A stretch of DNA of 64,000 nucleotides from Stenotrophobium rhamnosiphilum (lineage in GTDB: Bacteria; Pseudomonadota; Gammaproteobacteria; Nevskiales; Nevskiaceae), in the NCBI RefSeq assembly GCF_003052265.1, contig NZ_QANS01000001.1, forward strand, positions 372,001 through 436,000, read 5' to 3'. This document shows, piece by piece, positions 39,216 to 60,266 of this stretch. The number at the start of each line of letters is the position of its first letter. The first letter of the stretch is position 1. The position numbers were made by a program, and so were the translations under genes. The notes below the pieces were generated by a model. It was given only the letters and a program-made list of their open reading frames with translations. It did no database searches and had not been told where the DNA came from.

Positions 39216-41945
39216 GTGAGTAGTGAACGAACCAGCCAGCGTTCGCCCCAAGAGGCGTATGGCCACAAGCTGTTCGCGCCGACTATGCGCAGCGAGGCCA
39301 TTGTCCGTGCCTCGATTATTCAGCGGATCTTTGAAAATGAATCCGCGCGCGTCGTTGTTTTGCAGGGGCCCGCCGGGCACGGCAAATCAACGACCATGCA
39401 GCAGATCAAGAGCCTCTGCGAAGAGCGCGGCTATCTAACGGGTTGGCTGACGCTGGACGAAGCAGATAACGATCAACGTCGCCTTGCAATTCACCTGCAA
39501 GCTTTGCTGAATTCGATCACCGCGGCATTTAAAAAAATGGCGTCAGAAGACGCTGAATCTGGCACGCCAGAAAAGCGCCGTGAAAAAACAGATTGGATGA
39601 TTGATCAGTTGATCAAGATAGGGCGGCCGGTTGCGTTGTTCTTTGATGATTTTCAGGTGCTCAATAATAAGTCCGTGATGACCTGCTTCCGTGATTTGGT
39701 GGAGCGTGTGCCTGCAAATGCACGGTTCTTCATCGGTTCACGATCAGTACCCGATCTCGGTTTGGCGCGTTTGGTTGTAAATCAAAAAGCATTGATCTTG
39801 CGTGCTGATGATCTGCGCTTTTCACCTTCTGAAGTCGAAGAATTCTTTGCCAGCTCTGATGATCTTTTGGTTAACGAAACCGAGAGAAGTGCGATCTATC
39901 GTCGCACTGAAGGCTGGCCGGCTGCTTTGCAGCTATTCAAACTCACGCTGAACAATCCTGCGGTACGTAAGTCGCTAGGCGATCTTGGTAATTATCGTCC
40001 GCGCGAGCTTGCAGAATATCTTGCAGACAATGTGCTGACCTTGCAGAAACCCAAGGTGCAGGAATTTTTGCTACGCACGTCCTTGTTGCAAAGACTTTCA
40101 GGGCCGCTGTGTGATGCGGTGACTGGCTGGAATAACTCGCGAGAAATATTGCTGGAGCTGGAGCGTTCAGGCTTGTTCCTGCGCAGCCTCGATAGCGATC
40201 TGCATTGGTTTAAGTATCACGCCTTGTTCTCGTCGTTCTTGGCTGAGCAGTTGCGTAGTCAATCGAGTGACATCGCACGTGAAGTCCATGAGCGCGCTGC
40301 CGATTGGCACTTAAGCCAGGGCATGTACGAAGAAACAGTGCATCACGCCATTGCTGCAAAGAAGTTCTCGATGGCAGCAGATGTAATGAATATCTGGATG
40401 ACGCAGCTGGTGGTGAGTGCGCAGCTCATTACGGTTGAGCGTTGGTATGACCGCCTGCCTTTCGAAGAAATTGCGAAGCGTCCAGACCTCGCAATCAAGT
40501 TTGCATGGCCACTCATTTTCCTTAGACGTACGCAAAAACTGAAGCCTTTGCTTGAGTTGCTTGAAACCTTTAAGGGCAGTGGTGATTACGCCAACACCAA
40601 AGACTCTGCTGTCGCGCTAGCGATGGCGGCAATTTGTGCTGATGATTTGCCCAAGTCTTTTGAAATTATCAGTAGTGTCGAATTAGAGGGACGTGACCCG
40701 CAGGGATTCAGTGCTTTCGAACTCAGTGCGGGTGCAAACCTAGTTGGTTATCACTATTTTGCTTCGAGCAATTTTGAAAGTGCGCGAAAATACTTAGCGC
40801 TGGCTCGTGCTTATGGTGAACGCGGCGACGCAGCGTTTAGCAGTGGCTACACGGTTGGCGTGCGCGGTGTCTCACTGATGGCGCAAGGCCAATTGCGTGA
40901 AGCGCTTGACTGCTTCCGTCAGGCATTCGCTGAGCAGCGCATGCATATCGACAAATCTTTTGCGTCTGCAGCGTTGGTGTCTTGCTATGTCTGGGCACTT
41001 TACGAGGCAGGCGAGTTGGATCAGGTCGAGTCCTTGTTTGTTCAGTATCACGACGTCATTACCAGCACGGTACTTCTGGATTTTCTCGCTGTTGCTTATA
41101 TGGCGATGGCGCGTACGCATGATGCGCGTGGCCGTCCGAATAAAGCGCTCGAAATTCTGGATGAGGCGGAGCACATTGCTTATGCCAATGGCTGGCAGCG
41201 TCTGCTTAGAATTGTGAACTGGGAGCGCGTACGTCGCGGTCTCTTGTTGAGTGGCATTGAAAAAGGCCGCGCGATAGCAGCAACCATTACTCCGCCTGCT
41301 TCGCCACTATCAGAAGATAGGATATTTTTTGCAGATGAATTCGAGGGCGAAGCCTTTGGACGAATTCGTTTAGCCATTCATGAAACAGATGCATCTGTGG
41401 CGACTGCGTTGCTGACGGATGATATGGCTAAGCATCGTCACCGTAGTTATCGCCTAATCAAATTGTATTTGCTGGATGCGCAGTTGCAGGTCAAGCGCGG
41501 TGCTAGCAATGCGGCTCATCGTAGCTTGAGAAAAGCTTTGCAGCTCGGCGCGCCTGGTGGCTTTGTGCGCTGTTATTTGGATGAAGGCAATACGATTCTG
41601 CACTTGCTCAAAGAAGAGTATCAGGCGGTATTGGATGCAGGCTCGCAAGACGTTCCGTTCGGAACAGATCGCGAACACTTGGAAAAACTTTTGCATGCTT
41701 CAGGAACCGATCTGACGCGCACATCGAATCCCTTGAGCCCAGAGCCGCTGGAGCCTCTAACCGATCGTGAAAAGGAAATTCTGATCTTCTTGGCAAATGG
41801 TGTTTCAAATAAAGAAATGGCGGGTCGCATTTTTGTTTCTGAAAACACCGTTAAATTTCATTTAAAAAATATCTATTCAAAGCTTTCAGTAGGCAGCCGC
41901 TTGCAAGCGATCACTGCTGCGCGACAGTTGGGGCTGTTGCATTAA
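39216..41945 (+). CDS. MalT-type (LAL) LuxR-family transcriptional regulator
   Basis: 909 residues. A STAND/NTPase part begins near residue 20 with Walker A QGPAGHGKSTT (about 50-60) and Walker B VALFFDDFQVL (about 139-149). Winged-helix and long TPR-like helical repeats follow (about 340-800). The end is a LuxR HTH, LTDREKEILIFLANGVSNKE with ENTVKFHLKNIYSKLSVGSR. Such activators bind an inducer and ATP, multimerise and turn on nearby transport and catabolic genes. The start is GTG at 39216, with AGGAGAG upstream. It is the likely activator of the RND-DUF1329-YCF48-DUF1302 and downstream operons. Confidence 0.9.
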   Translation: MSSERTSQRSPQEAYGHKLFAPTMRSEAIVRASIIQRIFENESARVVVLQGPAGHGKSTTMQQIKSLCEERGYLTGWLTLDEADNDQRRLAIHLQALLNSITAAFKKMASEDAESGTPEKRREKTDWMIDQLIKIGRPVALFFDDFQVLNNKSVMTCFRDLVERVPANARFFIGSRSVPDLGLARLVVNQKALILRADDLRFSPSEVEEFFASSDDLLVNETERSAIYRRTEGWPAALQLFKLTLNNPAVRKSLGDLGNYRPRELAEYLADNVLTLQKPKVQEFLLRTSLLQRLSGPLCDAVTGWNNSREILLELERSGLFLRSLDSDLHWFKYHALFSSFLAEQLRSQSSDIAREVHERAADWHLSQGMYEETVHHAIAAKKFSMAADVMNIWMTQLVVSAQLITVERWYDRLPFEEIAKRPDLAIKFAWPLIFLRRTQKLKPLLELLETFKGSGDYANTKDSAVALAMAAICADDLPKSFEIISSVELEGRDPQGFSAFELSAGANLVGYHYFASSNFESARKYLALARAYGERGDAAFSSGYTVGVRGVSLMAQGQLREALDCFRQAFAEQRMHIDKSFASAALVSCYVWALYEAGELDQVESLFVQYHDVITSTVLLDFLAVAYMAMARTHDARGRPNKALEILDEAEHIAYANGWQRLLRIVNWERVRRGLLLSGIEKGRAIAATITPPASPLSEDRIFFADEFEGEAFGRIRLAIHETDASVATALLTDDMAKHRHRSYRLIKLYLLDAQLQVKRGASNAAHRSLRKALQLGAPGGFVRCYLDEGNTILHLLKEEYQAVLDAGSQDVPFGTDREHLEKLLHASGTDLTRTSNPLSPEPLEPLTDREKEILIFLANGVSNKEMAGRIFVSENTVKFHLKNIYSKLSVGSRLQAITAARQLGLLH

Positions 41946-41978
41946 ATTGAGTTAAGCGTTCTCGTGGGACTTGTTGTT

Positions 41979-42031
41979 ACGGACGGGTAGGGCTAGGTAA
42001 GAAATATCTGGCACAAAAACTACCCGTCCGT
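41979..42031. promoter_or_regulatory. Twelve-base inverted repeat upstream of the RND gene
   Basis: ACGGACGGGTAG (41979-41990) and CTACCCGTCCGT (42020-42031) are exact reverse complements 29 bases apart. Within them is CGGGTA, also found upstream of three other units in this cluster. It sits about 250-300 bases before the RND start in the 331-base gap after the regulator and may be the operator for it. Confidence 0.5.
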
Positions 42032-42150
42032 GTAGTGCGGCAATGTCGTGCAAGCTTCAAATTGCATCGCATAAACCACTCAAGCTGGTTGTACGTTGGC
42101 GATGTTTTATGCCGCAGTGCAACAAAGACTTGATACAACAGGAGGAGAGC

Positions 42151-42276: not shown

Positions 42277-44715
42277 ATGCTCTCCTTGCGTTTCCGCATT
42301 GCTGCATGGGTGATGGCCCATCGCAAATTCACTTGGGCCGTTTTCACACTGATCACCTTGGGCTTTGCTGCCGGTATTCCGCAAGTTCAGCTCAAGACGA
42401 TCTTCTCCGACCTGCTGCCTAAGGATGACCCTTACGTTAAGGTTTATAAGGATCACCCGAACTTCGGCAATCCTTTAACCGTCACCATCGTTGTCAAGCG
42501 TAAGAACGGCGATATCTACAACGCCGAAACGCTGAACAAGGTTTGGAACCTCACTCGCGATATCGATCTTTCGCCTGGCGTTGATCACGATCAGATTCTC
42601 TCGATCGCAACCGAAAAGGCTCGTTACGCCGAAGCCACTCCGTTCGGCATTGACGTTCGCCCGTTGATGGAAGATCACGTTCCAGCGACTGCTGAAGAAA
42701 TTCAGGAATTCAAAGGTCGTGTTGATAAATCACCCGGCGCTAGAACGTTCCTGATCTCGAACGACGCAACGGCAACGCTGATCAACGCAACGTTTATTGA
42801 ATCGCGCTTGGATTACGGCGTCGCATTCAAATACGTGCATGACCTCGTTAAGAAGGCACACGATAAAGATCACGACATTTATCTTGCTGGTCAGCCAGTT
42901 CTGACGGGCTGGGTGTATCAATACAATTCGCAGACGAACTGGATCTTCGCAGTCACGCTCGGCATGTTGGTATTGGCACTGGTTCTGTACATGCGTAACG
43001 TTGTTGGCGTAGTCACGCCAATCTTTACGAGTGCGGTTGCTGCGATTTGGGGTTTTGGTTTTGTCGGCTGGCTGAAGTCGCCGATTGAGCCCCTGTTGAT
43101 GATTGTGCCGCTGTTGCTCGTAGCGCGTACGTTCTCACATTGCGTGCAGTTTACTGAGCGCTACTACGAAATTTACTGGCACGTGAAAGATCGCGTTAAG
43201 GCTGCTGAAATCACCATGGGTGTGATGATGGCGCCGTCAGTACTCGGTATCTTCACGGACATCGTCGGTATCTTCCTCATCGCCGTAGCGCCAATTCCTG
43301 CAATGGAACGCTTTGCACTGTTCTGCGGCTTCTGGTGCATTTGGTTGATTCCTACCGGTGTGGTCCTGATCTCGCTGCAGTTGGCGGCACTTCCAGCACC
43401 TCGCAACGTTGCAGACCTTATTGGTCATGGCAAGGTCACCAAATTCCAGACTGGGTTTCAAGGCCTGTTGCGCTTTTTGGCGAGCCTATCCTTTGGTAAG
43501 CGCGCACGCGTGACCACGATTTTTATGGCGGTGATTGCAGTCGTTGCGGTGATTACCGCATTGCAAATCCGCATTGGTAACCCGGTTGAAGGAAGTAACT
43601 TGCTGTGGGACGACTCAGAGTTCAACGAGTCTGTTCGCCAAATCAATCGCTTGTTCCCAGGTGTGAACACGCTTGAAATTGTGTTTGAAGGTAAAGACCA
43701 GAAAAATCCGCGTCGTTTGATGCAGCAAGCTGACACCATCATGACGATGCAGAAGATTCAGGCCTTGATTGAACGTGGAGATCATCCGCCACGTGCAACG
43801 CTGTCCTTCGGCGACTATCTGATGGAGGGCAACCGTTTGTTCTCTGGTGGTGATACTCGCTGGATGCCGCTCGACCCAACCAATATGGCGGTCAACGCAG
43901 CGGTAGCTTCGGTACTCATGGGTAGCAGCCCCAAGGCCTATTCAAATGTGATCGACTTCGAGTTGCAGAACGGCACGGTGTCACTCTGGTACAAAGACAA
44001 CAAGCAGGACACGGTGGACTCAGCGCTGGAACAGGCTAAGAAAGCGATTGCGGTTGTTGGCGCGGATCACAAAGATTTCTTGATTCGCCTCGGCACGGGC
44101 ACCATCGCATTGCAGCAAGCAATGAACGATGTTGTGCATCGCTTCCACTGGGTCATCATCGGTTTGCTGAACATCGTGATCTTGATCGGTTGTAGCTTGG
44201 CTTATCGCTCGATCGTTGCAGGTTTGATCCTGCTGATTCCAGTGAACATGGCCAACTTCATCCTCAATGCTTCGATGCACATGATCGGCATTGGTCTGGA
44301 TATCAACTCGCTGCTCGTCGCGGCCATCGGTGTAGGTGTCGGCATCGACTACGGCATCTATCTGTTGTCACGTATCTGCGAGGAATACCACGCGCATGAT
44401 CACGATTGGGGCCGCACGATCACTGCATCGCTGACGACTACCGGTAAGGCGATCATGTTCACGGCATCCATCATGTTCGTCGGCATTCTACCTTGGTACT
44501 TCCTGTCAGGCCTGAAGTTCATGGCGGACATGGGCTTGCTCCTCGTGCTGACGATGTTGATCAACATGATTCTGGCGCTGGTTGCACTGCCGTTGCTGGT
44601 GTATCTGGTCAAGCCAAAGTTTGTAGCACGTAAAGATTTGCTGGTTGGCGAAGGTGTGGATCTGTCGCAGTTCACCTCGGCTGATTCAGATATGCAAAGT
44701 GGAAAGTCGGTCTGA
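42277..44715 (+). CDS. RND/MMPL-family inner-membrane transporter
   Basis: 812 residues with the doubled MMPL plan: one membrane helix, a periplasmic loop, five helices, then the same again. The second half repeats the pattern with VGIDYGIYLLSRICEEYH and FMADMGLLLVLTMLINMILALVALPLL. FSDLLPKDDPYVKVYKDHPNFG after helix 1 recalls hopanoid-transporter HpnN and other lipid-moving members. It is too short for a tripartite HAE-type drug pump and no membrane-fusion protein is near. With DUF1329, YCF48 and DUF1302 it is a recurrent set beside catabolic genes for hydrophobic compounds. The role is inferred to be movement of a lipid-like substrate. Confidence 0.85.
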   Translation: MLSLRFRIAAWVMAHRKFTWAVFTLITLGFAAGIPQVQLKTIFSDLLPKDDPYVKVYKDHPNFGNPLTVTIVVKRKNGDIYNAETLNKVWNLTRDIDLSPGVDHDQILSIATEKARYAEATPFGIDVRPLMEDHVPATAEEIQEFKGRVDKSPGARTFLISNDATATLINATFIESRLDYGVAFKYVHDLVKKAHDKDHDIYLAGQPVLTGWVYQYNSQTNWIFAVTLGMLVLALVLYMRNVVGVVTPIFTSAVAAIWGFGFVGWLKSPIEPLLMIVPLLLVARTFSHCVQFTERYYEIYWHVKDRVKAAEITMGVMMAPSVLGIFTDIVGIFLIAVAPIPAMERFALFCGFWCIWLIPTGVVLISLQLAALPAPRNVADLIGHGKVTKFQTGFQGLLRFLASLSFGKRARVTTIFMAVIAVVAVITALQIRIGNPVEGSNLLWDDSEFNESVRQINRLFPGVNTLEIVFEGKDQKNPRRLMQQADTIMTMQKIQALIERGDHPPRATLSFGDYLMEGNRLFSGGDTRWMPLDPTNMAVNAAVASVLMGSSPKAYSNVIDFELQNGTVSLWYKDNKQDTVDSALEQAKKAIAVVGADHKDFLIRLGTGTIALQQAMNDVVHRFHWVIIGLLNIVILIGCSLAYRSIVAGLILLIPVNMANFILNASMHMIGIGLDINSLLVAAIGVGVGIDYGIYLLSRICEEYHAHDHDWGRTITASLTTTGKAIMFTASIMFVGILPWYFLSGLKFMADMGLLLVLTMLINMILALVALPLLVYLVKPKFVARKDLLVGEGVDLSQFTSADSDMQSGKSV

Positions 44716-44802: not shown

Positions 44803-44848
44803 TGTGCAACCTGCGGGACTAAAGGTTGTTGCGTAGAGGAGAGTAGTG

Positions 44849-46231
44849 ATGCGTATTAAAAAATATGACTTTGATTACGGCCGCCGTATGTTGCTTCAAA
44901 AGGCTGCAGTTGGTGCCAGCGCAGGTGTTCTGGCTCCTCTATGGCCAATGATTGGCAATACTGGTGATACCAGTAAGGCTTATCCAGATGAACTTCTGTC
45001 GATTTCGATGTACACCAAAGGCAAGATCAAGCCTGGTGATGTTGTAGACGCAAACAATGTTGAAGCGGTTAAGGATCTGCTTGATCCAATCGCTTATCAG
45101 CAGGTTAAGACCATGGGTCGTCGCATCAACATCGTTGAGTCCACCAAGGACGCAACGAAGTTGTTCCCGGCTCCGTATCTTGCTGCCACGCTGAAGAACA
45201 AGGGCAAGGCCAAGCTTGATGCCAACAACAACGTTGTCACGCAAGATGGCCAGCCTTGGATCGGTGGTAACCCGTTTCCTGATTTCAAAAACGCTATCGA
45301 AGCCACGGCTAACCTGACCTTGGCTTGGGGCCGTCACGATTACTCGCAGTATGCGGTTCGTGACTGGGACATCGCGCCGGATGGCACGCTGGCCTACACC
45401 TACGATTTCGTTTGGGCTGAACTCAACACCACCGCGCGTTCCGATGGCAAGGTGTGGGGCGGCAAGAAAGATCTGCTTCGTTATCAGTCGGTGTGGTTCA
45501 CTGCACCACAAGACGTTGCCGGTACTTCGTTCCTCAACACTTGGTATTACGACCAGCGCAAGTTCCCGGATCTTCAGGGTTACCTGCCTGCGTTTAAGCG
45601 CGTTCGTCAGTTCCCGACCAACCAGCGTTTTGAACCGTTGGTTCCAGGCGTCACCATCTTCCTGTCCGACGCATGGGCGGCAGGTGATCCGATGCTGACG
45701 TGGGGCAACTACAAGATTGTTGGCCGTAAGCCAATGCTCGGTTTCGTTGGTGGTCGCAACTTTAACGGCGGCTACAACGCTAACTACGAACGTAAAGTGC
45801 ATGGCGGACCGAAGGGCCAAACCTTCTTCGAAACCTATGCAGAGCTGATTCCAGAAACCGTGATTGTAGAAGCCGAGCCAACGGGTTATCCGCGCGCTCC
45901 GCTGAGCAAGAAGCGTACTTGGATCGACGTTCGTAACGGTATGTACGTTGCGTACAACACCTACGATCGCCGCGGCGAAATGTGGAAATCGTTCGAGCCT
46001 GCTTATGCGCAGTACTCCAATGACAAGATGACGGTTAAAGATGAAAGCGGTAATCCGTCATGGTCGTGGGTGTATGTGCACAGTCATGACATCCAGGCCA
46101 ACCGCATGAGTCGCTTCGTGCAGGCTAAGGAAATCACTGGTGGTTACAAGAGCAGCTACTCCACCAACGGTGTCGACGTTTACAACAAGTACCTGACGGT
46201 TCAGGCGATCCAGCGTTTGGGTTCAGCCTAA
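44849..46231 (+). CDS. DUF1329 protein with probable Tat signal
   Basis: 460 residues from the ATG at 44849; a GTG directly before it would add one. DUF1329 has a LolA/LolB-like lipid-binding fold and is seen with DUF1302, YCF48 and RND proteins. The N-terminus YGRRMLLQKAAVGASAG, with Arg-Arg at 12-13 and a moderately hydrophobic stretch, looks like a twin-arginine export signal. That would mean it is folded before export. LDPIAYQQVKTMGRRINIVES, KKRTWIDVRNGMYVAYNTYDRRGEMWK-like sequence and SRFVQAKEITGGYKSSY follow. Its stop shares one base with the YCF48 ATG. Confidence 0.87.
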   Translation: MRIKKYDFDYGRRMLLQKAAVGASAGVLAPLWPMIGNTGDTSKAYPDELLSISMYTKGKIKPGDVVDANNVEAVKDLLDPIAYQQVKTMGRRINIVESTKDATKLFPAPYLAATLKNKGKAKLDANNNVVTQDGQPWIGGNPFPDFKNAIEATANLTLAWGRHDYSQYAVRDWDIAPDGTLAYTYDFVWAELNTTARSDGKVWGGKKDLLRYQSVWFTAPQDVAGTSFLNTWYYDQRKFPDLQGYLPAFKRVRQFPTNQRFEPLVPGVTIFLSDAWAAGDPMLTWGNYKIVGRKPMLGFVGGRNFNGGYNANYERKVHGGPKGQTFFETYAELIPETVIVEAEPTGYPRAPLSKKRTWIDVRNGMYVAYNTYDRRGEMWKSFEPAYAQYSNDKMTVKDESGNPSWSWVYVHSHDIQANRMSRFVQAKEITGGYKSSYSTNGVDVYNKYLTVQAIQRLGSA

Positions 46232-51028: not shown

Positions 51029-51508
51029 ATGAGTGAGCAACCCCAAGCGCATCCATATCAGATGGATCGCCTGTTTTCCTACACCGGAACTTTGCAGGCG
51101 CCACCAGAGGTGATTGGGCCAGTGCCAGAAGGTATTCGCGCAACGTTCTACATCACTGGTGGTGATGTCGATGGACCGAAGATCAAAGGTCATCTGCGTC
51201 ATGCCGGTGGTGATTGGTTCACCGTGCGACCAGATGGCATTGGCGTGCTTGATGTACGCACCACGATAGAAACCAACGACGGCGCGCTGATTTATCTCAG
51301 CTACCTCGGTTATGGAGATCTTGGTGTTGATGGATATGAAAAGTTTCTACGCGGCGATTTGCCCAAACGCTTGACGCTGCGTACTTCCCCTCAGTTTCGC
51401 ACCGCGCATCCGGATTATCTCTGGCTGCAGCGCGTGATGTGCGTTGGTGTGGGTGATGTCGATTTAGAGAAGTTTGTGGCTTCTTACGATGTATACGCGG
51501 TGCGCTGA
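51029..51508 (+). CDS. DUF3237 protein
   Basis: 159 residues from the ATG at 51029, which has GGAGG eight bases upstream. The frame opens 21 codons earlier with a GTG and a hydrophobic stretch that could be read as a signal, but family members usually start near this ATG. LFSYTGTLQAPPEVIGPVPEG, then DWFTVRPDGIGVLDVRTTIETNDGALIY and FRTAHPDYLWLQR are typical DUF3237. A lipocalin-like barrel is expected; it often sits among aromatic or terpenoid degradation genes. Activity unknown. Confidence 0.83.
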   Translation: MSEQPQAHPYQMDRLFSYTGTLQAPPEVIGPVPEGIRATFYITGGDVDGPKIKGHLRHAGGDWFTVRPDGIGVLDVRTTIETNDGALIYLSYLGYGDLGVDGYEKFLRGDLPKRLTLRTSPQFRTAHPDYLWLQRVMCVGVGDVDLEKFVASYDVYAVR

Positions 51509-51590: not shown

Positions 51591-51612
51591 TGACAACAAG
51601 AGGAGGATGGTT

Positions 51613-53673
51613 ATGGGTGAAGCTCCCAAGGAGAAAGTAATCGAAGGACAATTGTTGTGGACTCCTAGAGAAGAGTTCAAAAACAATTCCAACGTTACTC
51701 AATACATGGAATGGCTGCGCATTAATCGCGGCAAAGATTTTGCTGATTACGATGCGCTTTGGCAGTGGTCCGTCACCGATATCGAAGATTTCTGGGCATC
51801 GATCTGGGACTACTTCAAGATTGAGTCATCAACACCTTACAAGCAGGTGCTGGACCGCCGCATCATGCCAAATGCCAAGTGGTTTGAAGGCTCGCTCGTC
51901 AATTATACCGAGCACCTGTTGCGCCATGAGCGCACAGCAAAGGCGGACGAACAAGTATTCCACCATCTCACTGAGACGACGCCGCTAGCGCATATGACGT
52001 GGCATGAGTTGGCACGGCAGGTGCGAATTCTGGCGACGCAGATGCGCACACTCGGTGTTAAGCCAGGCGATCGCGTCGTGTCGTATATGCCTAACGTGCC
52101 GGAGACGGCCATTGCCATGATGGCGACCACCGCCATTGGCGCGGTGTGGTCATCCGCTGCGCCGGAGTTCGGCGTCAAGACGGTGATCGAGCGCTTTTCG
52201 CAGATTGAGCCGAAGCTGATGTTTGCAGCTGACGGTTATCGCTTTGGCGGCAAAGTGTTCCGCCGTGAAGCTGAAGTGCGTCGTATCGCAAGCGAGTTGC
52301 CGACGCTGGAGCGCATTGTCTGGCTGCCGTTTATCGAAGCCGGCAATATGGTGCCGGACATCCCGCATACGATTAGCTGGTCGCAATTGATGAGTCACGC
52401 TGATGTTTCGCGTGAGAGCTTCAAGTTCGAGCGCGTGCCTTATGACCATCCGCTGTGGGTGGTGTTCTCCTCAGGCACCACCGGTCTACCTAAGGCCATC
52501 GTGCACAGCCATGTCGGTGTGTTGCTTGAGCATCAGAAGCTGATGCATTTCCAGCTCGATCTGAAACCAAACTCAGTGTTCTTCTTCTACACCACTACAG
52601 GCTGGATGATGTGGAATCTGGTGATGGCCTCACTGATTACCGGCAGCTCTGCGGTGCTCTATGACGGCAGCCCGGCGTTTCCGTCTGATTTGCTGTGGAA
52701 AGTCGCCGCCGAAACCGGCGCTACCAGTTTTGGTGCCAGCCCGACCTTTGTGCAGATGATGGAGAAAGAGGGTCTGGTTCCGAGTCAGAAATACGATCTG
52801 TCGAAGATGGAGACCATGATGGTTGCTGGCGCTCCTTCAACGCCGGAAACATTCAACTGGTGCTATCGCAGCGTCAAGAAAGATCTGTGGGTGACTTCGC
52901 AGTCGGGCGGCACTGAAATTTGCTCTGGTTTCGTCGGCGCCACGCCAACCAAATCGGTCCACGCCGGTGAAATCCAGACGCGCATGCTCGGCATGGACGT
53001 GCACAGCTGGAGCGACGACGGGAAAGAATTGGTTGATGAAGTTGGCGAACTGGTTGTGACTAAACCTTTCCCTTCGATGCCGGTGTATTTTTGGAAAGAC
53101 ACCGACGGCAAGCGCTATCACGATGCTTACTTCGATACCTTCAAAGACGCAGACGGTAATCCGATCTGGCGTCACGGCGATTTCATCAAGATCAACAAGC
53201 GCGGTGGTTGCTATATCTATGGTCGTTCCGACTCCACGCTCAATCGTTATGGCGTACGTATCGGTACTGCTGAAATCTATCGTGCGGTTGAGCAGGTTGA
53301 AGGCGTTGCCGACAGCCTGATCGTTTGTGTTGAGCTGCCAGGCGGCCACTTCTTCATGCCACTGTTCTTACGTCTGAAACCCGACGTTGTGTTCGACGAC
53401 GTTCTGCAGAAAAAGATCTCTGCAAAATTGCGCGAAGACTGCAGCCCTCGACATGTGCCTGATCGCATGTACGCCATCGAACAGATTCCATACACGCTCA
53501 CGGGCAAGAAGATGGAAGTTCCCATCCGCAAGCTGCTAATGGGCTGGCCTTTGGAAAAATCTGCGAGCCGTGACGCGATGATGAATCCGACGTCGATTGA
53601 CTACTTCGTGACGTTCGCGCAGGAATCGATTGATTACCAGTGGCGTCCATCTGATGCGAGCGCTAACGCTTAA
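51613..53673 (+). CDS. Acetoacetate-CoA ligase-like acyl-CoA synthetase
   Basis: 686 residues of the ANL superfamily, AACS group. It begins GEAPKEKVIEGQLLWTPREEF and has the long N-terminal extension typical of acetoacetyl- and acetyl-CoA synthetases. VVFSSGTTGLPKAIVHSHVG is the AMP-binding loop, followed by TTTGWMMWNLVMASL. The catalytic Lys lies in YTLTGKKMEVPIRKLLMG near the end. It activates a short acid with ATP and CoA. Acetoacetate is the usual substrate of close relatives, but other short or branched acids are possible. ATG 51613 is best spaced from the AGGAGG site; ATG 51607 lies directly upstream in frame. Confidence 0.85.
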   Translation: MGEAPKEKVIEGQLLWTPREEFKNNSNVTQYMEWLRINRGKDFADYDALWQWSVTDIEDFWASIWDYFKIESSTPYKQVLDRRIMPNAKWFEGSLVNYTEHLLRHERTAKADEQVFHHLTETTPLAHMTWHELARQVRILATQMRTLGVKPGDRVVSYMPNVPETAIAMMATTAIGAVWSSAAPEFGVKTVIERFSQIEPKLMFAADGYRFGGKVFRREAEVRRIASELPTLERIVWLPFIEAGNMVPDIPHTISWSQLMSHADVSRESFKFERVPYDHPLWVVFSSGTTGLPKAIVHSHVGVLLEHQKLMHFQLDLKPNSVFFFYTTTGWMMWNLVMASLITGSSAVLYDGSPAFPSDLLWKVAAETGATSFGASPTFVQMMEKEGLVPSQKYDLSKMETMMVAGAPSTPETFNWCYRSVKKDLWVTSQSGGTEICSGFVGATPTKSVHAGEIQTRMLGMDVHSWSDDGKELVDEVGELVVTKPFPSMPVYFWKDTDGKRYHDAYFDTFKDADGNPIWRHGDFIKINKRGGCYIYGRSDSTLNRYGVRIGTAEIYRAVEQVEGVADSLIVCVELPGGHFFMPLFLRLKPDVVFDDVLQKKISAKLREDCSPRHVPDRMYAIEQIPYTLTGKKMEVPIRKLLMGWPLEKSASRDAMMNPTSIDYFVTFAQESIDYQWRPSDASANA

Positions 53674-53730
53674 TTCCTCAATGAAATGCAAGGTCGATGA
53701 GTACTGCTCGGCTTTGTGGAGAGCGAAACA

Positions 53731-54492
53731 ATGAAACGAGTTCAGGACAAAGTTTGCGTTGTAACCGGTGGAGCACGTGGCCTTGGCCTTGCCGCGGCAG
53801 AAGCGCTGCTCGCAGAAGGCGCAAAGGTATTGATTACAGACGTTGATGTTGCTGCGGGTGAAGCAGAAGCAAAGCGCCTCGGCGCCAATGCTGCGTTCCG
53901 CGTTCAAGACGTCACCAATCGTGCAGATTGGGATGCCACGCTTGATGCGGCTATCGCCAAGTGGGGCCGCCTTGATGTCGTCGTCAATAACGCGGGCGTT
54001 GGTAGCTTTTCAACCGTTGAAGATATTTCTCTGAAAGATTGGCAACGCACGATTGATATCAATCTCAGCGCCGTATTTTTTGGCACACAGGCTGCAATTG
54101 TGCGCATGAAGGAGAAAGGCGGTTCCATCGTCAATATTGCTTCGATTGAAGGAATGATTGGCGAGCCACTGATCCCTGCATACAACGCCAGCAAGGGCGG
54201 TGTTCGCATCTTCACCAAGTCTGCTGCGATTCATTGCGCACGCTCTGGCTACAACATTCGCATCAACAATGTTTGCCCTGGCTTTGCCGAGACGCAGATG
54301 GTGGCGGGTGCGCTCGCGGCATTAAAGCCTGAAGACGCACAAGCTTTTGCAGTTAAAACGTTAGGCCGTATTCCCATGGGCCGTTTTGCGCGCCCAGAAG
54401 AAATTGGTAAAGCGGTGTTGTTCCTGGCTTCAGATGATTCCAGCTACATGACGGGCTCCGACCTCGTCGTGGATGGAGGCATGACCGCGTGA
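53731..54492 (+). CDS. Short-chain dehydrogenase/reductase
   Basis: 253 residues. TGGARGLGLA is the cofactor loop, ITDVD follows strand two with Asp (NAD+), NNAGVGSF, NIASIEG with catalytic Ser, YNASK with Tyr/Lys. It ends SSYMTGSDLVVDGGMTA. A close relative in plan of the first SDR but not a recent copy. Its TGA overlaps the GTG of the PHA-synthase-like gene by four bases (GTGA). Confidence 0.87.
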   Translation: MKRVQDKVCVVTGGARGLGLAAAEALLAEGAKVLITDVDVAAGEAEAKRLGANAAFRVQDVTNRADWDATLDAAIAKWGRLDVVVNNAGVGSFSTVEDISLKDWQRTIDINLSAVFFGTQAAIVRMKEKGGSIVNIASIEGMIGEPLIPAYNASKGGVRIFTKSAAIHCARSGYNIRINNVCPGFAETQMVAGALAALKPEDAQAFAVKTLGRIPMGRFARPEEIGKAVLFLASDDSSYMTGSDLVVDGGMTA

Positions 54493-56198
54493 GCGCTAGG
54501 CGCAAAAAGACACAAGGATCGGGTTCGACGCAAGAGCCCAGTGTCGATAATGTCTTTGGCCAATATGTTCTCGGTGATTTTCGCCCCAGCGATTTGATCG
54601 ATGTTGCAGGTGAGTTAGCCAAGCAAGCGAGACGTCAGCCGGGTGCAGTGATTAATGCAGGCCTTGGATTTTTAAAAGGCATCCGCAGCGTTGTGACCGG
54701 TCAATCTACGCAAGCACCAGATCCCAGCGATCGGCGCTTTTCTGATCCTGCTTGGAAGGACAGCAAGTTGTTCAATGGTGTTCTACAAGGTTATCTGGAA
54801 CTTCGTGACGCCCTGCAAGCCTACGCCAAGGAATCAGGTCTCAACGAGAATCAGGTTGAGCGCGCTGAATTTCTGATGACGCAGATTGCCGACGCTTTGG
54901 CGCCGACCAATTTCTTGCCGACCAATCCTGCTGCCCTGCGCAAGGCGCGTGAAACTCGCGGTGCGAGTTTGTGGGCTGGCTTGAAGATGTTTGTGGACGA
55001 TGTTTCCAAAGGTCGCCCGATTCCTTCACAGGTCGATGAGAGCGCATTCAAGGTCGGTGAAAATCTGGCTGCGACGCCAGGCTCGGTCGTGTTTCGTCAT
55101 GACATGTTTGAACTGCTGCAATACACCGCGCAGACCGCACAGGTTCGTGAGCGTCCGATCTTTGTCGTGCCGTCGATTGTTAACAAGTACTACGCTTTTG
55201 ATATCGCGCCCAAGCGCAGCGTGATGGAATATTTTGTGCAGCAGGGCTTCACCGTTTATGTGATGGCTTGGAGAAATCCAAAGCCCGAGCATGATTTCTG
55301 GGGCATGCCGGATTACATCGATGCGATTGATGAAGGTCTCGATGTCGCGCTCAATATTTCGAAGAGCGATTCCGTCAATATGTGGGCAGTGTGCGGGGCA
55401 GGACCTCTGGCAACGTCACTGGTGGCACATCATCAGTCGGTAGGTCAGCGCAAGGTCAATAGTCTTTTGCTGTTTGTATCGCCCCTGGATATGGCCGCGA
55501 TGTCGAATGCGCCAGCCATTGGTGCTTTTGTCGATAAACAAGCGATGCCGATGGTGCGCAAAGAAATGCGCAAGAAACGCATGAGCGCGCGCCAGTTCAC
55601 GCTGCTGTTCGCAATGCTGCGCGCCAATGATCTGATCTGGAATTATTGGGTCAGCAACTATCTGATGGGCATCAAGCCGACCGCTTTCGACATTCTTTAC
55701 TGGAATGGCGATGGCACCGGCATGACCGCTCAGTACAACTACGACTTCACCGCCTTTGTAGAAAACAATCCGCTGGTTTCGGATGGCGAAATGCTGGTGC
55801 GCGGTAAGCCTGTCGCACCATTGGCGGATTTGGATATCGATAGTTATGTGCTGGGCGCCGCCAATGATCATCTCTGCATTTGGCAGGGCGTTTATCGCAG
55901 CGCGCAGATGCTCGGCAAGCGCAGCCAATTTGTTTTGGGTAATAGCGGACACATCCAGACCATCGTCTGCCCGCCAAGTAATCCCAAGGCGAGTTACTTC
56001 CTCAATGATCATCTCCCTGCGACCGCTGGTGAGTGGCACAAAACAGCGACCAAGCATCAAGGTAGCTGGTGGGATCATTGCGTAGCGTGGACACATGAAC
56101 GCGGCGGCAAGTTGATTAATGCGCCGAAGGCAGAAGGCAACGCGAAATACCCACCGATTGGCGCTGCGCCGGGAACATATATCCATGACCGCGTCTAG
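54489..56198 (+). CDS. PhaC-like polyhydroxyalkanoate synthase
   Basis: 569 residues. Family stretches are SDPAWKDSKLFNGVLQGY, PIFVVPSIVNKYYAFDIAP, WRNPKPEHDFWGMPDYI and WNYWVSNYLMGIKPTAFDIL. The triad is present as Cys302 (WAVCGAGP), Asp460 (GAANDHLCIW) and His488 (GNSGHIQT). The lipase-like box AVCGAG differs from the usual GxCxGG. Class I/II synthases polymerise 3-hydroxyacyl-CoA. No phaA or phasin gene is near, so another acyl-transfer role is possible. GTG start overlaps the SDR, and its end overlaps the PhaZ-like gene by 14 bases. Confidence 0.85.
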   Translation: MSARRKKTQGSGSTQEPSVDNVFGQYVLGDFRPSDLIDVAGELAKQARRQPGAVINAGLGFLKGIRSVVTGQSTQAPDPSDRRFSDPAWKDSKLFNGVLQGYLELRDALQAYAKESGLNENQVERAEFLMTQIADALAPTNFLPTNPAALRKARETRGASLWAGLKMFVDDVSKGRPIPSQVDESAFKVGENLAATPGSVVFRHDMFELLQYTAQTAQVRERPIFVVPSIVNKYYAFDIAPKRSVMEYFVQQGFTVYVMAWRNPKPEHDFWGMPDYIDAIDEGLDVALNISKSDSVNMWAVCGAGPLATSLVAHHQSVGQRKVNSLLLFVSPLDMAAMSNAPAIGAFVDKQAMPMVRKEMRKKRMSARQFTLLFAMLRANDLIWNYWVSNYLMGIKPTAFDILYWNGDGTGMTAQYNYDFTAFVENNPLVSDGEMLVRGKPVAPLADLDIDSYVLGAANDHLCIWQGVYRSAQMLGKRSQFVLGNSGHIQTIVCPPSNPKASYFLNDHLPATAGEWHKTATKHQGSWWDHCVAWTHERGGKLINAPKAEGNAKYPPIGAAPGTYIHDRV

Positions 56199-57108
56199 CG
56201 TATACGCGGGCAACAAGGCTCACTTCGATCCTAATCGGACTTACGCCGAACTGCGCGTGGGTGCCAAGCGCAGCATGCGTCTGCGCCGCGTAAAAGTGAT
56301 GGGCTATTCCCTTCGTGTGGCGATTTGGCCTGGACGTGCAGAAGCGCACACGCCCTTGGTTTTGTTTAACGGCATTGGCGCTCGTCTTGAATTGCTGGAG
56401 CCATTTGCTGATGAGCTAGGTGATCTGGAAACGATTGCGATTGATGTGCCGGGCACTGGCAAATCGTCGCTACCGATGCATCCGTACCGCATGTGGATGT
56501 TAGTGATCCTGATGCAGCGCGTGCTCACCAAACTCGGCTATGAGCAAGTTGATGTACTTGGCGTGTCATGGGGCGGAACGTTGGCGCAGCAGTTTGCATT
56601 GCAAAACCCCAAGCGCTGCCGTCGTCTGATTCTCTGCGCAACAGGGCAGGGCATGCCGATGATTCTGGATCCGCGCATCCTGCTCAAGTTCATCACACCG
56701 CGTCGATTCAATGATCCGGTTTATCGCCGCAAGATTGCAGGTGAGATTTACGGTGGGGCTGCGCGCAATCAGCCGGGACTGATACGAGAGATTGGCCCGC
56801 GCATGATGCCTACCAGCAAGTTCGGTTATCTGATGCAACAGCTCGCGATTAGCGGTTGGACGAGCCTGCCTTGGCTGCCCTTGCTCAAACAACCGGTGTT
56901 GATCATGGCTGGCAACGATGATCCGGTGATTCCGCTGATCAACGCTCAAATCATGTCCAAGCTCATTCGCAATTGTCGTCTGCATGAAGTCAACGACGGG
57001 CATTTGTTCCTGGTCTCCGATCCTGTTGGTTCTAGCCAAGTAATTCGCGAGTTCTTGGATTCTCCACAAAATAAAGTTTCAAAGGCGGCATTAGGAAATA
57101 AAGCATGA
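56185..57108 (+). CDS. PhaZ-like intracellular polyhydroxyalkanoate depolymerase
   Basis: 307 residues of an alpha/beta hydrolase close in pattern to medium-chain-length PhaZ of Pseudomonas. LVLFNGIGARLELLEPFADEL, IDVPGTGKSSLPMHPYR, the nucleophile in GVSWGGTLAQQFA, and MAGNDDPVIPLINAQI with NDGHLFLVSDP match it. Ser, Asp and His are intact. It would break down stored polyester or a hydroxyacyl ester made by its neighbour. The ATG at 56185 lies inside the end of the PhaC-like gene, and its stop overlaps the next SDR as ATGA. Confidence 0.82.
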   Translation: MTASSVYAGNKAHFDPNRTYAELRVGAKRSMRLRRVKVMGYSLRVAIWPGRAEAHTPLVLFNGIGARLELLEPFADELGDLETIAIDVPGTGKSSLPMHPYRMWMLVILMQRVLTKLGYEQVDVLGVSWGGTLAQQFALQNPKRCRRLILCATGQGMPMILDPRILLKFITPRRFNDPVYRRKIAGEIYGGAARNQPGLIREIGPRMMPTSKFGYLMQQLAISGWTSLPWLPLLKQPVLIMAGNDDPVIPLINAQIMSKLIRNCRLHEVNDGHLFLVSDPVGSSQVIREFLDSPQNKVSKAALGNKA

Positions 57109-57932
57109 AAAAACTCCAAGGTAAGGTTGCATTGGTAACAGGATCTGGCCGAGGGATCGGCCGTGAAATTGCGTTAAAGCTAGCGCGTGATGGAGCACGC
57201 GTAGTGGTCAATGATCTTGATGAATCATTTGCTACAGAAACAGTAGAAGCGATTCGTGCGGTGGGCTCGGATGCCATTGCGGTCATTGGCAGTGTTGTTG
57301 AAAAAGATTTTGGTGATCGTTTTGTGCGCGCTGCGATTGATGTGTTTGGCGGCGTTGACATCATCGTCAACAACGCGGGTTACACCTGGGACAGCGTGGT
57401 GCAGAAGACCACCGACGAACAGTGGCAGGCCATGATTGATGTACACATGACTGCACCGTTTCGAATTCTGCGCGCGGCGGCGGATTTCATCCGCACGAAG
57501 TCGAAAGAAGAAGCAGATCAGGGTCGCGAAGTTTTTCGCAAGGTCGTCAATATTTCTTCGCTTGCTGGTGTCGGCGGCAATGCCGGGCAAATTGGTTATG
57601 GCGCTGCCAAGGCGGGCGTCAACGGCATCACTAAAACCATGTGCAAGGAATGGGGCCGTTTCAAGGTCAACGTCAACAGCGTGGCATTTGGTTTGATTCG
57701 TACGCGTTTAACTGAAGCTGCAGCGGGCGCAGGTTCAGCAATTGCGGTCGATGGAAAAAACATCAAGGTCGGCGTGAATCCAGAAGTGCTCAAGACGATG
57801 GAGCAGGGTATCCCGCTCGGCCGTGCAGGCACACCTGAAGAAGCAGCTGGTGCGGTGTATCTCTTATGTCTGCCCGAGTCTGACTACATCAGTGGTCAGG
57901 TCATCGTGTGCAGCGGCGGTTTCATGTTCTAA
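57105..57932 (+). CDS. FabG-like short-chain dehydrogenase
   Basis: 275 residues. TGSGRGIGRE, VVNDLDE after strand two, NNAGYTWD, NISSLAG with catalytic Ser, YGAAK with Tyr/Lys. A loop insert RTKSKEEADQGREVFRK before the catalytic strand and the ending ISGQVIVCSGGFMF set it apart from the two other SDRs here. The plan fits 3-oxoacyl/3-hydroxyacyl dehydrogenases. Coupled by ATGA to the PhaZ-like gene, so likely supplies or uses the hydroxyacyl units. Confidence 0.86.
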   Translation: MKKLQGKVALVTGSGRGIGREIALKLARDGARVVVNDLDESFATETVEAIRAVGSDAIAVIGSVVEKDFGDRFVRAAIDVFGGVDIIVNNAGYTWDSVVQKTTDEQWQAMIDVHMTAPFRILRAAADFIRTKSKEEADQGREVFRKVVNISSLAGVGGNAGQIGYGAAKAGVNGITKTMCKEWGRFKVNVNSVAFGLIRTRLTEAAAGAGSAIAVDGKNIKVGVNPEVLKTMEQGIPLGRAGTPEEAAGAVYLLCLPESDYISGQVIVCSGGFMF

Positions 57933-57991: not shown

Positions 57992-59131
57992 ATGAGTGCT
58001 AAAAAACCAGTCGTCATTTACGGTGTTACCGGATACACGGGCCGTCTCGTTGCAGAATATTGCCGCGAGTTCAATATCCCTTTCATTGCTGCTGGCCGTA
58101 ATGGCGCCAGCATCAAAGAAGTTCTCAGCAAGGTTCCTGGCATCGAGACGGCCGATTACGAAATCGTCGAAGTTAAGGAACACACAGTTGCAGCTTTGCG
58201 TGCAGTGCTGAAAGGCGCCAAGGTCATGCTCAACATGGTCGGCCCGTTTGCCAAGCTGGGTAATGAAGCCGTAGAAGCTTGCCTTGCAGAAGGCGTGCAT
58301 TACACTGATACCAACGGTGAGCAGAACTGGATGATTGAGTGCGATGAGAAGTGGGGCCAGAAATTTGCTGACAAGCAACTCTGTCTCTCGCCCGGTATCG
58401 CGCAGATGTACACCACCGGCGAAATCGCCGCACAGATCGCACTGGAGACCCCAGGCCTCACTACGCTGGATATGTTGGTGTTGTGGAAGGGCTTCCCGAC
58501 CTACGCTTCGGTGCAGACAATCTTCAGCATCCTCACGTCTGACTTCTTCTATCTTGAGAACAACAAGTACGTGATGTGGCCTGCTGGTGCCAAGGCTGAT
58601 GCCATCGTCCCGGGCCAGCACGAAACCGCGTTGGTTCTGCCTTGGGGCGGCACCGCACATCCGGTTTGGTTCAAGAACGATCCACGCGTGCTTAATTGCA
58701 AAGTTATGGGCGGCGTCTTTGCGCGCGCCGTGATGGACAACGTGGTTGCGATGAACGCCAAGATCGATGCGGATATCCGTCCGCTGCCACCTGCTGAGCA
58801 GGAGAAGGCATTGTCGGCAATGGCCGCGAGCGTACAAGCTGGTATGCCGCCACGTGAAAATCCGCTGGTCAATATTTCGATTGACTCCGTCATGGCTAGC
58901 GGCCCGCTGGGCTTCAAGCACGTGATCATCCGTGGCAACCAGAACTACAAGCAAACCGGTTTGCTGCAGGCCTACTTTGCGCACCACCTGCTCCAAGCGC
59001 CGCCTAAGCGTTATGGTTTTGCTTCCGGCTGTCAGGCGTTGGGTCATCGCGAGTTGCTCGGTGTTCTGCAGAACTTCGGCTTCGTCAGAGCGCCAGAAGT
59101 TACGCTCAACGGCTTGCCAGTTCCGCAGTAA
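57992..59131 (+). CDS. DUF5938 saccharopine-dehydrogenase-like oxidoreductase
   Basis: 379 residues from the ATG at 57992 after AGGAGA. An N-terminal Rossmann domain starts VVIYGVTGYTGRLVAEYC, then AGRNGASIKEVLSKV, and a NMVGPFAKLGNEAVEACLAEGVHYTDTNGE stretch as in trans-acting enoyl reductases and saccharopine-dehydrogenase-like proteins. The C-terminal part, with GYGFASGCQALGH-like sequence, fits DUF5938. It probably reduces or isomerises a lipid-like substrate with NAD(P)H. A 59-base gap separates it from the SDR. A strong hairpin follows. Confidence 0.8.
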   Translation: MSAKKPVVIYGVTGYTGRLVAEYCREFNIPFIAAGRNGASIKEVLSKVPGIETADYEIVEVKEHTVAALRAVLKGAKVMLNMVGPFAKLGNEAVEACLAEGVHYTDTNGEQNWMIECDEKWGQKFADKQLCLSPGIAQMYTTGEIAAQIALETPGLTTLDMLVLWKGFPTYASVQTIFSILTSDFFYLENNKYVMWPAGAKADAIVPGQHETALVLPWGGTAHPVWFKNDPRVLNCKVMGGVFARAVMDNVVAMNAKIDADIRPLPPAEQEKALSAMAASVQAGMPPRENPLVNISIDSVMASGPLGFKHVIIRGNQNYKQTGLLQAYFAHHLLQAPPKRYGFASGCQALGHRELLGVLQNFGFVRAPEVTLNGLPVPQ

Positions 59132-59150
59132 GCAGCACAACGGCGGTAAA

Positions 59151-59188
59151 TACGACGGGGCGGTCCTTCGCAGGGCCGCCCCGTCGTA
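59151..59188. terminator. Strong hairpin after DUF5938
   Basis: TACGACGGGGCGGTCC (59151-59166) and GGGCCGCCCCGTCGTA (59173-59188) make a 16-pair stem with one G-T pair and a six-base loop. No T-run follows on the plus strand, so termination is not certain; it may protect the 3' end. Confidence 0.5.
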
Positions 59189-59225
59189 CGTTATGCTTTC
59201 GAAAATATTTCGATGACATTCAACA

Positions 59226-60266
59226 ATGACTACTGAAGCACCTCTCAATCGCCGAATTGTTTTGGCGCAACGTCCGATTGGTTCGCCGACCGCTGCTGAT
59301 TTTCGTTTGGAAGAAGTGCCACTGCCTGAACTCGCAGATGGGCAGGTTCTTCTGCGCACTTTATATCTGTCGATTGATCCCTACATGCGTGCGCGCATGA
59401 GCGATGCGCCTTCGTATGCGCAGCCAGTCGCGATTGACGCAGTGATGGTGGGCGCTACGGTGTGTCGCGTTGAAGCTTCGCGTTCGTCATCGCTTGCCGT
59501 TGGTGATGTGGTGCTTTCGATGAATGGTTGGCAGGACTATGCGGCGGTATCAACCAAAGGGCTGATGAAGATTGATGCATCGCTCGCGCCACCATCGTAT
59601 TCACTCGGTGTGCTCGGTATGACTGGCTTCACTGCCTATGTCGGTTTGCTCGACATCGGTCAGGCCAAAGAAGGCGATACAGTTTTGGTGTCTGCCGCGA
59701 CCGGCGCGGTCGGTGGCACTGTGGGTCAGATCGCCAAGCTCAAAGGCTGTCGTGCGGTGGGTATTGCTGGCGGCGACGACAAATGCGAATACGCAGTCAA
59801 CACGCTCGGCTATGACGCCTGCATCAATCACTATGACGAGGACTTTGCCGAACAGCTTGCTGCGGCTTGTCCGAATGGTGTCGATGTCTACTTTGAAAAC
59901 GTCGGTGGCAATCCGCTGATGGCGGCAATTCCGCTACTCAACGTCGGCGCACGCGTAGCGCTTTGCGGAATCATCGCTTGGCTCAACGGCCCGGCACCTG
60001 GCCCTATCGATACCGCGCCGCAAATCATGCGTGCCTTGCTCAATAAACGTGCAAGCGTGCAGGGGTTTGTGATCACCGACCACTACGCCACGCGCCATGC
60101 CGACTTCCGTCGCGACATGAGTCAGTGGGTCAAGGAAGGCAAGATCCACTACCGCGAAGACGTGATCGAAGGATTGGAGCGTGCGCCGTTCGCGTTGATG
60201 GGTCTGCTGCGTGGCGACAACTTTGGGAAGGTCGTCGTGCGTGTTGAGAAAACCGAAGCTACATGA
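59226..60266 (+). CDS. CurA/PTGR-like NADP-dependent enoyl reductase (MDR family)
   Basis: 346 residues of the zinc-free medium-chain reductase family. RRIVLAQRPIGSPTAADF at the start, SIDPYMRARMS, the cofactor loop VSAATGAVGGTVGQIAKLKG and FENVGGNPLMAAIPLL place it with CurA, prostaglandin and leukotriene reductases. These reduce the double bond of alpha,beta-unsaturated ketones. No zinc-binding cysteine set is present. It lies after the hairpin and may have its own promoter, but strand and context link it to the cluster. Confidence 0.9.
   Translation: MTTEAPLNRRIVLAQRPIGSPTAADFRLEEVPLPELADGQVLLRTLYLSIDPYMRARMSDAPSYAQPVAIDAVMVGATVCRVEASRSSSLAVGDVVLSMNGWQDYAAVSTKGLMKIDASLAPPSYSLGVLGMTGFTAYVGLLDIGQAKEGDTVLVSAATGAVGGTVGQIAKLKGCRAVGIAGGDDKCEYAVNTLGYDACINHYDEDFAEQLAAACPNGVDVYFENVGGNPLMAAIPLLNVGARVALCGIIAWLNGPAPGPIDTAPQIMRALLNKRASVQGFVITDHYATRHADFRRDMSQWVKEGKIHYREDVIEGLERAPFALMGLLRGDNFGKVVVRVEKTEAT

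Follow-up and report, generated by a model that had tools for sequence, protein, structure and literature searches.

A 64,000-nt stretch of Stenotrophobium rhamnosiphilum (NZ_QANS01000001.1, 372,001-436,000; hereafter the window, whose positions are used throughout) was analysed for a cluster of fourteen open reading frames (ORFs) at 39216-60266, all on the + strand, in which a MalT-type regulator is followed by four predicted envelope genes and a run of enzyme genes that includes a PhaC/PhaZ pair. Judged from its sequence, the cluster is an Ame-type envelope system of a distinct DUF1329 branch, joined to a recurring partner pathway and to a new PhaC subgroup. Gene labels were taken from Pfam and NCBIfam profile matches against curated cut-offs (Table 1); these and the ORFs confirmed the content, strand, coordinates and labels of an initial annotation.

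Table 1. Genes and hairpins of the cluster, in window positions
Feature	Position	Strand	Basis and remarks
MalT/LuxR-type regulator (STAND ATPase, TPR, GerE)	39216..41945	+	Pfam TPR_MalT, GerE
RND/MMPL inner-membrane transporter, HAE3-like	42277..44715	+	MMPL 79.1 bits
DUF1329 periplasmic protein, twin-arginine-type signal (GRRMLLQKAAVGASAGVLAPLW)	44846..46231	+	DUF1329 209.7 bits, cut-off 23.1
YCF48/BNR-repeat protein, AmeC-like	46231..47199	+	PSII_BNR 71.4 bits; Sec-type signal by eye
DUF1302 outer-membrane barrel candidate	47261..49627	+	DUF1302 105.6 bits, cut-off 23.2
Terminator-like hairpin, T-rich tail, 11 pairs	49681-49706	+	3' of DUF1302, ahead of SDR1
SDR1, alcohol/3-hydroxyacid dehydrogenase type	50114..50929	+	Pfam SDR
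DUF3237	50966..51508	+	Pfam
Acetoacetate-CoA-ligase-like (AACS)	51607..53673	+	TIGR01217 788.4 bits, above cut-off 520.9
SDR2	53716..54492	+	Pfam SDR; possible alternative start ATG 53731
PhaC-like, divergent class II relative	54489..56198	+	PhaC_N 186.8 bits
PhaZ-like alpha/beta hydrolase	56185..57108	+	TIGR02240 251.3 bits, cut-off 250.6; longest ORF from 56119
SDR3	57105..57932	+	Pfam SDR; 77-78% identical to Pseudonocardia and Phyllobacterium proteins
Saccharopine-dehydrogenase-like (Sacchrp_dh) + DUF5938 oxidoreductase	57992..59131	+	DUF5938 388.9 bits; longest ORF from 57908
GC-rich hairpin, 17 pairs (one G-T pair), weak T tail	59151-59188	+	between DUF5938 and CurA
CurA-like ene-reductase	59226..60266	+	NF058644 508.4 bits, cut-off 440

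The regulator falls under the MalT equivalog NF003420 (341 vs 537 bits) and is called MalT-type only. The best NCBIfam match of the RND protein was HAE3 (TIGR00921) at 126.8 bits, far under the cut-off of 351.9; its hydrophobic stretches lie inside residues 219-375, 408-437 and 619-784, and the expected N-terminal one was not scored. The likely start of the DUF1329 gene is ATG 44849. Its product matches Pfam LolA_like (34.2 bits, cut-off 30) and, weakly, PDB sequences (E 0.013 to 0.32), and a LolA-like fold is suggested by these matches, since a structure predicted from one sequence (mean predicted local distance difference test, pLDDT, 31.1) was too poor for structure searching. The DUF1302 protein has an N-terminal signal, an Ala/Glu/Pro-rich linker of ~88 residues and a C-terminal Phe, on which signs it is a barrel candidate. 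Behind the signal, the linker (47333-47596) contains no Lys or Arg. The AACS has 4wd1 as its best PDB match, and no second close copy was found in the genome, where other matches are at most 31% identical. PhaZ passes TIGR02240 barely, by less than 1 bit, and could be aligned with four other PhaZ proteins.

Overlaps of starts and stops, as initially annotated, were found between DUF1329 and YCF48 (1 base), SDR2 and PhaC (4 bases) and PhaZ and SDR3 (4 bases), and two longer ones depend on the choice of start. That of PhaC and PhaZ shrinks from 80 to 14 bases with the later start 56185, and the 25 bases shared by SDR3 and DUF5938 disappear with the later start 57992. The fourteen genes are probably divided over more than one transcription unit. 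The hairpin behind DUF1302 is a probable intrinsic terminator dividing the envelope from the enzyme genes, as judged from its stem and tail, and together with the ~400 bases that follow it up to SDR1, free of any ORF of 120 amino acids, it argues for separate envelope and enzyme units. Its stem was the second longest among the 23 sites of a terminator scan whose overall yield was near chance (20.1 expected, standard deviation 5.4). A sigma-70 promoter scan (1 site vs 12.7 expected) was uninformative. No tRNA gene was found in the window, and no Rfam match at 38900-61200.

The envelope set and its relatives

The initial annotation regarded the inner-membrane, periplasmic and outer-membrane relay as undescribed. 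It is of an already described kind, since sets of this composition have been published. AmeABCD of Castellaniella defragrans 65Phen comprises DUF1302, DUF1329, COG4447/YCF48 and HAE3 RND proteins encoded in a hydrocarbon-catabolism island, and its deletion reduced growth on unfunctionalised monoterpenes, lowered tolerance and increased Nile Red accumulation in de-energised cells; the authors interpret the system as a tetrapartite exporter whose composition and organisation recur throughout the AmeD lineage (PMC6394551). In Pseudomonas putida, PP_0765 (DUF1302) and PP_0766 (DUF1329) are described as essential for Tween20 metabolism, their fitness correlates with that of PP_2018 and PP_2019, and a novel transport system was proposed there on the basis of AlphaFold contacts, of which one was strong and two were weak (PMC10866462). 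The four gene kinds also occur in predicted aromatic regulons of Betaproteobacteria, according to the part of that study cited here (PMC6449761).

The window resembles AmeABCD in encoding all four protein kinds together. It differs in gene order, RND-DUF1329-YCF48-DUF1302 as against ameABC directly upstream of ameD in the account cited (PMC6394551), in its neighbouring enzymes and, AmeB being outside the sequences compared, possibly in the twin-arginine clade of its DUF1329. The P. putida set likewise combines a DUF1302 and a DUF1329 with a periplasmic protein and an efflux transporter, and the fitness phenotypes of the four are related; they differ in lying, by locus tags, at two gene places and in their Tween 20 phenotype, and the passages cited mention neither ketone nor PhaC genes for PP_0765, PP_0766, PP_2018 and PP_2019 (PMC10866462).

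These data also bear on what the envelope proteins do. One explanation takes them as efflux for solvent tolerance only, without feeding a pathway, which would be compatible with the enzyme half of the reading preferred below. The lowered monoterpene tolerance and the raised Nile Red signal of the AmeABCD deletion are as expected from efflux (PMC6394551), whereas in P. putida the counterparts are reported as essential to the metabolism of Tween20, an effect that toxicity does not obviously explain (PMC10866462). We regard efflux alone as somewhat unlikely. As to direction, the Ame data point to export and the P. putida data are neutral or point to import; outward partition control is slightly favoured as the envelope role.

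The DUF1329 protein of the window belongs, by its sequence, to a deep separate clade with twin-arginine-type signals. In a tree of 25 DUF1329 proteins, 14 rows of twin-arginine type and 10 of Sec type were divided by a branch with support 100/100, and an ungrouped Cupriavidus row fell on the Sec side. The motif RR-x-hydrophobic-hydrophobic was present in 55 of 57 window-type DUF1329 sequences (window counted), and the two misses (one in genome G038, one in G004; G and L numbers are our labels for genomes and loci) resemble wrong or cut starts. Within the genome of the window, DUF1329 matches over the cut-off number 17 and DUF1302 matches 16, besides several RND relatives. Contig C17 of this genome carries an RND gene 63% identical to that of the window, adjoining a DUF1329 gene 53% identical. 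The RR motif was found in the window and C17 copies and in none of ten others checked (15 others exist in the genome); these ten look Sec-exported by eye. The 17 DUF1329 and 16 DUF1302 matches in a genome of less than 4 Mb point to many Ame-like systems in one bacterium.

Matches to the window DUF1329 at E<=1e-60 were present in 48 of 146 genomes (own counted), and the locus was taken from 33 of the other 47, picked by best match; its flanks are of unequal length and in many cases stop at a contig end. Genes were counted within 32 kb at set identity limits (MalT-type at least 45%, CurA 40%, SDR3 50%). Taken singly, RND was found at 28, YCF48 at 28, DUF1302 at 29 and a second DUF1329 at 22 of the 33 related loci, and the full four-gene set at 26. 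The seven remaining loci are those of G008, where RND is cut by a contig end and was dropped by the length limit, G033, with broken genes, G015, whose DUF1329 at 59.7% is just under the limit, and G036, G039, G056 and G006. The co-occurrence of the four envelope genes that had been predicted thus stands.

A plasmid of Methylibium petroleiphilum PM1 also keeps MMPL-DUF1329-YCF48-DUF1302 (54, 59, 40 and 38% identity). The set lies downstream of genes for AlkB and for two rubredoxins, and of a LuxR-type gene that is 26% identical to that of the window. On this plasmid (L132, 17594-36401) the four-gene row is present twice, in opposite directions, and an IS3-like element interrupts the second DUF1302 match. 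Flavin monooxygenases are encoded close to four of the 33 related loci, as well as to the Methylibium set (L243, L244, L247, L206, L132); the best NCBIfam match of one Methylibium protein was the Baeyer-Villiger-type PtlE, under its cut-off.

Partner enzymes and the PhaC-PhaZ-SDR3 trio

The enzyme genes accompany the envelope set in part. MalT-type genes were found at 18 of the 33 related loci, SDR1 and AACS at 16 each, DUF3237, SDR2 and DUF5938 at 12 each and CurA at 11. At least three of SDR1, DUF3237, AACS, SDR2, DUF5938 and CurA were present at 12 of the 26 four-gene loci. PhaC and PhaZ were each counted once and SDR3 nowhere (0/33). The single PhaC/PhaZ call is G006, where a 41% identical PhaC adjoins a lone DUF1329; in G031 a PhaC relative of ~30% identity lies 23 kb off, under the count limit. 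On these sequence comparisons the link that the initial annotation drew between envelope and enzymes is partly upheld; its link to the polyester enzymes is a local variant.

What recurs at the related loci, and is absent from the cluster genes of the window, is a set of acetophenone-carboxylase-type genes. ApcA, B, C and D were present at 14 of the 33 loci each and all four jointly at 13; an ApcE-like gene was present at 14. ApcC and ApcD together were found at 13 of the 26 four-gene loci, ten of these being among the 12 enzyme-rich ones. In the congener G001 the enzyme block reads apcA, apcB, apcC, apcD, SDR1-like, ApcE-like, DUF3237, AACS, CurA, SDR2, DUF5938. The best PDB matches of ApcA, ApcB and ApcD are chains of acetophenone carboxylase 5l9w, and the best NCBIfam matches of ApcA, C and D are acetophenone carboxylase models. 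The fifth gene drew no match in Pfam and nothing of note in the PDB, and it is called ApcE-like for its position; relatives also stand 3' of apcD in Rhodococcus jostii pRHL2 and Neorhizobium petrolearium. The gene order in G001 agrees with the apcABCD(E) order described earlier (PMC5214803), and the link of such a carboxylase to a CoA ligase likewise has a published precedent (PMC4729919). The apc-bal operon of Aromatoleum aromaticum thus shares with the relatives of the window, which have apcABCD and an AACS-like ligase, the logic of ketone carboxylase plus CoA ligase (PMC4729919, PMC5214803, as far as cited); it differs from the window, which has no carboxylase, and AACS is likened to Bal by role, not by sequence.

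At E<=1e-40, matches to ApcD are present in 31 of the 146 genomes, among them G001, with no such match in the genome of the window (99.7% complete). Part of the enzyme set also occurs away from such envelope loci: a Cupriavidus necator pBB1 row (L276, 11352-24810) consists of apcA-B-C-D, SDR2 (59% identical to the window), ApcE-like, AACS (59%) and a MalT-like gene (36%), its apcABCD and ApcE-like genes are 45-85% identical to those of G001, and no envelope gene was found in this 34-kb stretch.

Of 369 genomes sampled across the class, two matched DUF5938 (PF19362; own counted), and a literature search for it returned no papers. Among five plasmid records with a DUF1329 match, four also have a DUF5938 match, roughly 6 to 8 kb apart: Burkholderia cenocepacia CP091013 (if circular), Cupriavidus oxalaticus, Cupriavidus sp. 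KK10 and B. arboris. The DUF1329 matches of these four are weak (25-27% identity); in C. oxalaticus, the stretch from DUF1329 to DUF5938 includes RND and YCF48 relatives. In the fifth, Methylibium, DUF5938 is absent from the best 40 of 72 rows. Plasmids of Variovorax and Tsukamurella carry SDR-DUF5938-AMP-ligase, with neither PhaC nor envelope matches in these stretches. A structure of DUF5938 predicted from two sequences (mean pLDDT 33.8) was too poor for structure searching.

The constant partnership of PhaC/PhaZ with the envelope genes, as initially proposed, was not borne out: the trio stands elsewhere with AACS and DUF5938 and without any envelope gene in the fetched stretch. DUF5938, AACS, PhaC, PhaZ and SDR3 occur together in Pseudonocardia sp. 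TRM90224 (61, 67, 59, 57 and 77% identical) and on a Phyllobacterium plasmid (63, 73, 63, 61 and 78%), where a thiolase-like gene lies upstream and a PF13557 transporter gene downstream; window-type envelope proteins had no matches in either stretch. Pseudonocardia is an actinobacterium and has no outer membrane of this kind. SDR3 adjoins PhaC-PhaZ in all three genera in which this PhaC type was found. Further close PhaC proteins were sought with the following results: in 145 other relatives the best near-full-length match was 42%, with a 46% fragment in G033 (among the matches listed); in 79 other loci of a contig scan, at most 41% (among the matches listed); in 248 other Pseudonocardia-family genomes, at most 42% (E<=1e-100); in 397 other genomes of the phylum, at most 41% (E<=1e-130); and among 143 plasmid records, Phyllobacterium alone exceeded 60%, the other 14 listed reaching at most 39%. 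G+C content, overall and at third codon positions, did not set PhaC-PhaZ-SDR3 off as foreign. A joint arrival of the window AACS and DUF5938 with the Pha genes was considered and is not supported by trees: the window DUF5938 lies inside the family clade (100/99), the window AACS pairs with that of G001 (92/91), and the Phyllobacterium and Pseudonocardia AACS fall in the same six-member group (87/89), which is poorly resolved.

Class II polyhydroxyalkanoate (PHA) synthases have a G-x-C-x-G-G nucleophile box and a Cys/Asp/His triad. The window PhaC departs from the box, which reads A-V-C-G-A-G, and retains the triad; Cys302, Asp460 and His488 show no variation across the 22 rows of an alignment. 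Among 198 aligned PhaC segments from 130 loci, A-V-C-G-A-G occurs besides the window only in L011 and L124; the PhaC of the Phyllobacterium and Pseudonocardia sets has this box. Of the others, 195 read C-x-G-G, and in L044 the Cys is missing from this place. Six of the 198 have a non-Gly first residue alone, and the Ala at the fifth place is confined to L011 and L124. The arrangement resembles Pseudomonas phaC1-phaZ (class II PHA), in which PhaC adjoins a PhaZ of the same type; the window PhaC differs in being ~41% identical, in its altered box, in scoring under the class II cut-off and in its setting among other genes.

That this protein is a CoA-acyltransferase or thioesterase of the pathway and not a polymerase is accordingly worth weighing, and would be compatible with the preferred reading. 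It falls under both the class I and class II PHA synthase cut-offs (class II TIGR01839, 522.2 vs 855.4 bits) and has a box shared by two of 198 segments, which favour such a role; set against this are the kept catalytic residues and the PhaZ-type gene adjoining in all three genera, and we find it doubtful.

An ordinary polyhydroxybutyrate (PHB)/acetoacetate cycle of PhaC, PhaZ, a 3-hydroxybutyrate dehydrogenase-type SDR and AACS, neighbouring an unrelated Ame-type transporter by chance, would explain why AACS, the sole close copy found in the genome, reaches the acetoacetate-CoA ligase equivalog, and would suit the terminator-like site between the two parts. The PhaC is moreover the only PHA synthase found in the genome, and a single phasin-like match (33 bits vs 24.9) is present there. 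This match is nearly worthless as a sign of granules, because the same model is also over its cut-off in a control archaeon, Methanosarcina acetivorans. Against such a cycle, AACS, SDR1, DUF3237, SDR2 and DUF5938 recur in relatives by the same envelope genes, mostly with the apc-type carboxylase and without PhaC, SDR1 and SDR3 (the two covered by the scan) fall under the 3-hydroxybutyrate dehydrogenase cut-offs, and DUF5938 has no known place in it. We consider this cycle improbable.

A proposed two-part catabolic locus

We judge it reasonably probable that the cluster is a two-part catabolic locus for a hydrophobic compound, combining the Ame-type envelope system with a beta-keto-acid pathway. 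By predicted topology, RND would be the inner-membrane pump, DUF1329 and YCF48 the periplasmic components and DUF1302 the outer-membrane one, and the system would move the compound or toxic intermediates between the inner membrane and the outside. The cytoplasmic node would be the conversion of a beta-keto acid to a beta-ketoacyl-CoA by the AACS-like ligase. In many relatives, an SDR would oxidise an alcohol to a ketone, and Apc (apcABCD and the fifth gene) would carboxylate the ketone to the beta-keto acid ahead of the ligase; CurA and DUF5938 would be reductases of side branches or of later steps. For the window, a 3-hydroxy acid may be the source of the keto acid instead: PhaZ/PhaC would release or bank it, and an SDR would oxidise it. 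The MalT-type regulator likely controls both parts.

A PHA cycle leads from hydroxy acid to keto acid and on to AACS, and this logic fits PhaZ-SDR-AACS in Phyllobacterium and Pseudonocardia, which we count in favour of the two-part reading, together with the recurrence of envelope, enzyme and apc genes at the related loci, the pBB1 and Methylibium rows, the published Ame and P. putida phenotypes and the missing ApcD match. The substrate class and the role of PhaC/PhaZ are inferred, and polymer formation is hypothetical. As candidate substrates we guess at isoprenoid ketones or other long methyl ketones and at the corresponding alcohols, for the isoprenoid ketones from general background; a literature search listed nothing on bacterial carboxylation of isoprenoid ketones.

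Several observations weigh against the two-part reading. The terminator-like site suggests separate transcription of the two parts. Fewer than three of the six enzyme genes are present at 14 of the 26 four-gene loci, and none in the fetched (short) flanks of G037 and G051, so that the envelope set may also serve other pathways. No thiolase or hydroxylase was found in the window cluster with Pfam and NCBIfam, and AACS may act simply on acetoacetate. The Apc matches are far under the NCBIfam equivalog cut-offs. At the locus, G004 and G009 have the ApcE-like gene without apcABCD, keep the enzymes and have no PhaC, which indicates that loss of apc is not generally paired with gain of PhaC. The Ame gene order is different, and AmeB stood outside the sequence comparison.

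A more far-reaching form is put forward tentatively, and we think it unlikely: two interchangeable feeds would serve one beta-keto-acid node. An undescribed, widespread pathway that carboxylates hydrophobic ketones, made up of an apc-type carboxylase, the AACS-like ligase, SDRs, DUF5938 and DUF3237, would be tied to the twin-arginine-type Ame transporter. In this genome a new PhaC/PhaZ subfamily would take its place, storing the hydroxyacyl part of the substrate in an unusual polyester or working on it as a CoA-acyltransfer/hydrolysis pair.

Ame-type systems are known from hydrocarbon degraders, with substrates, direction and mechanism unsettled. The locus ties the twin-arginine-type DUF1329 branch to recurring enzymes for which a chemistry can be guessed, from alcohol through ketone and beta-keto acid to CoA ester, and thereby offers concrete candidate substrates and a shared context for DUF1329, DUF3237, DUF5938 and the ApcE-like protein. 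The unusual PhaC may represent a novel enzyme of storage or of acyl transfer. Upstream of the cluster, at 28434-37962, lie type VI secretion-like genes for a ClpV-like AAA ATPase, an OmpA-domain protein, VasE and VipB.

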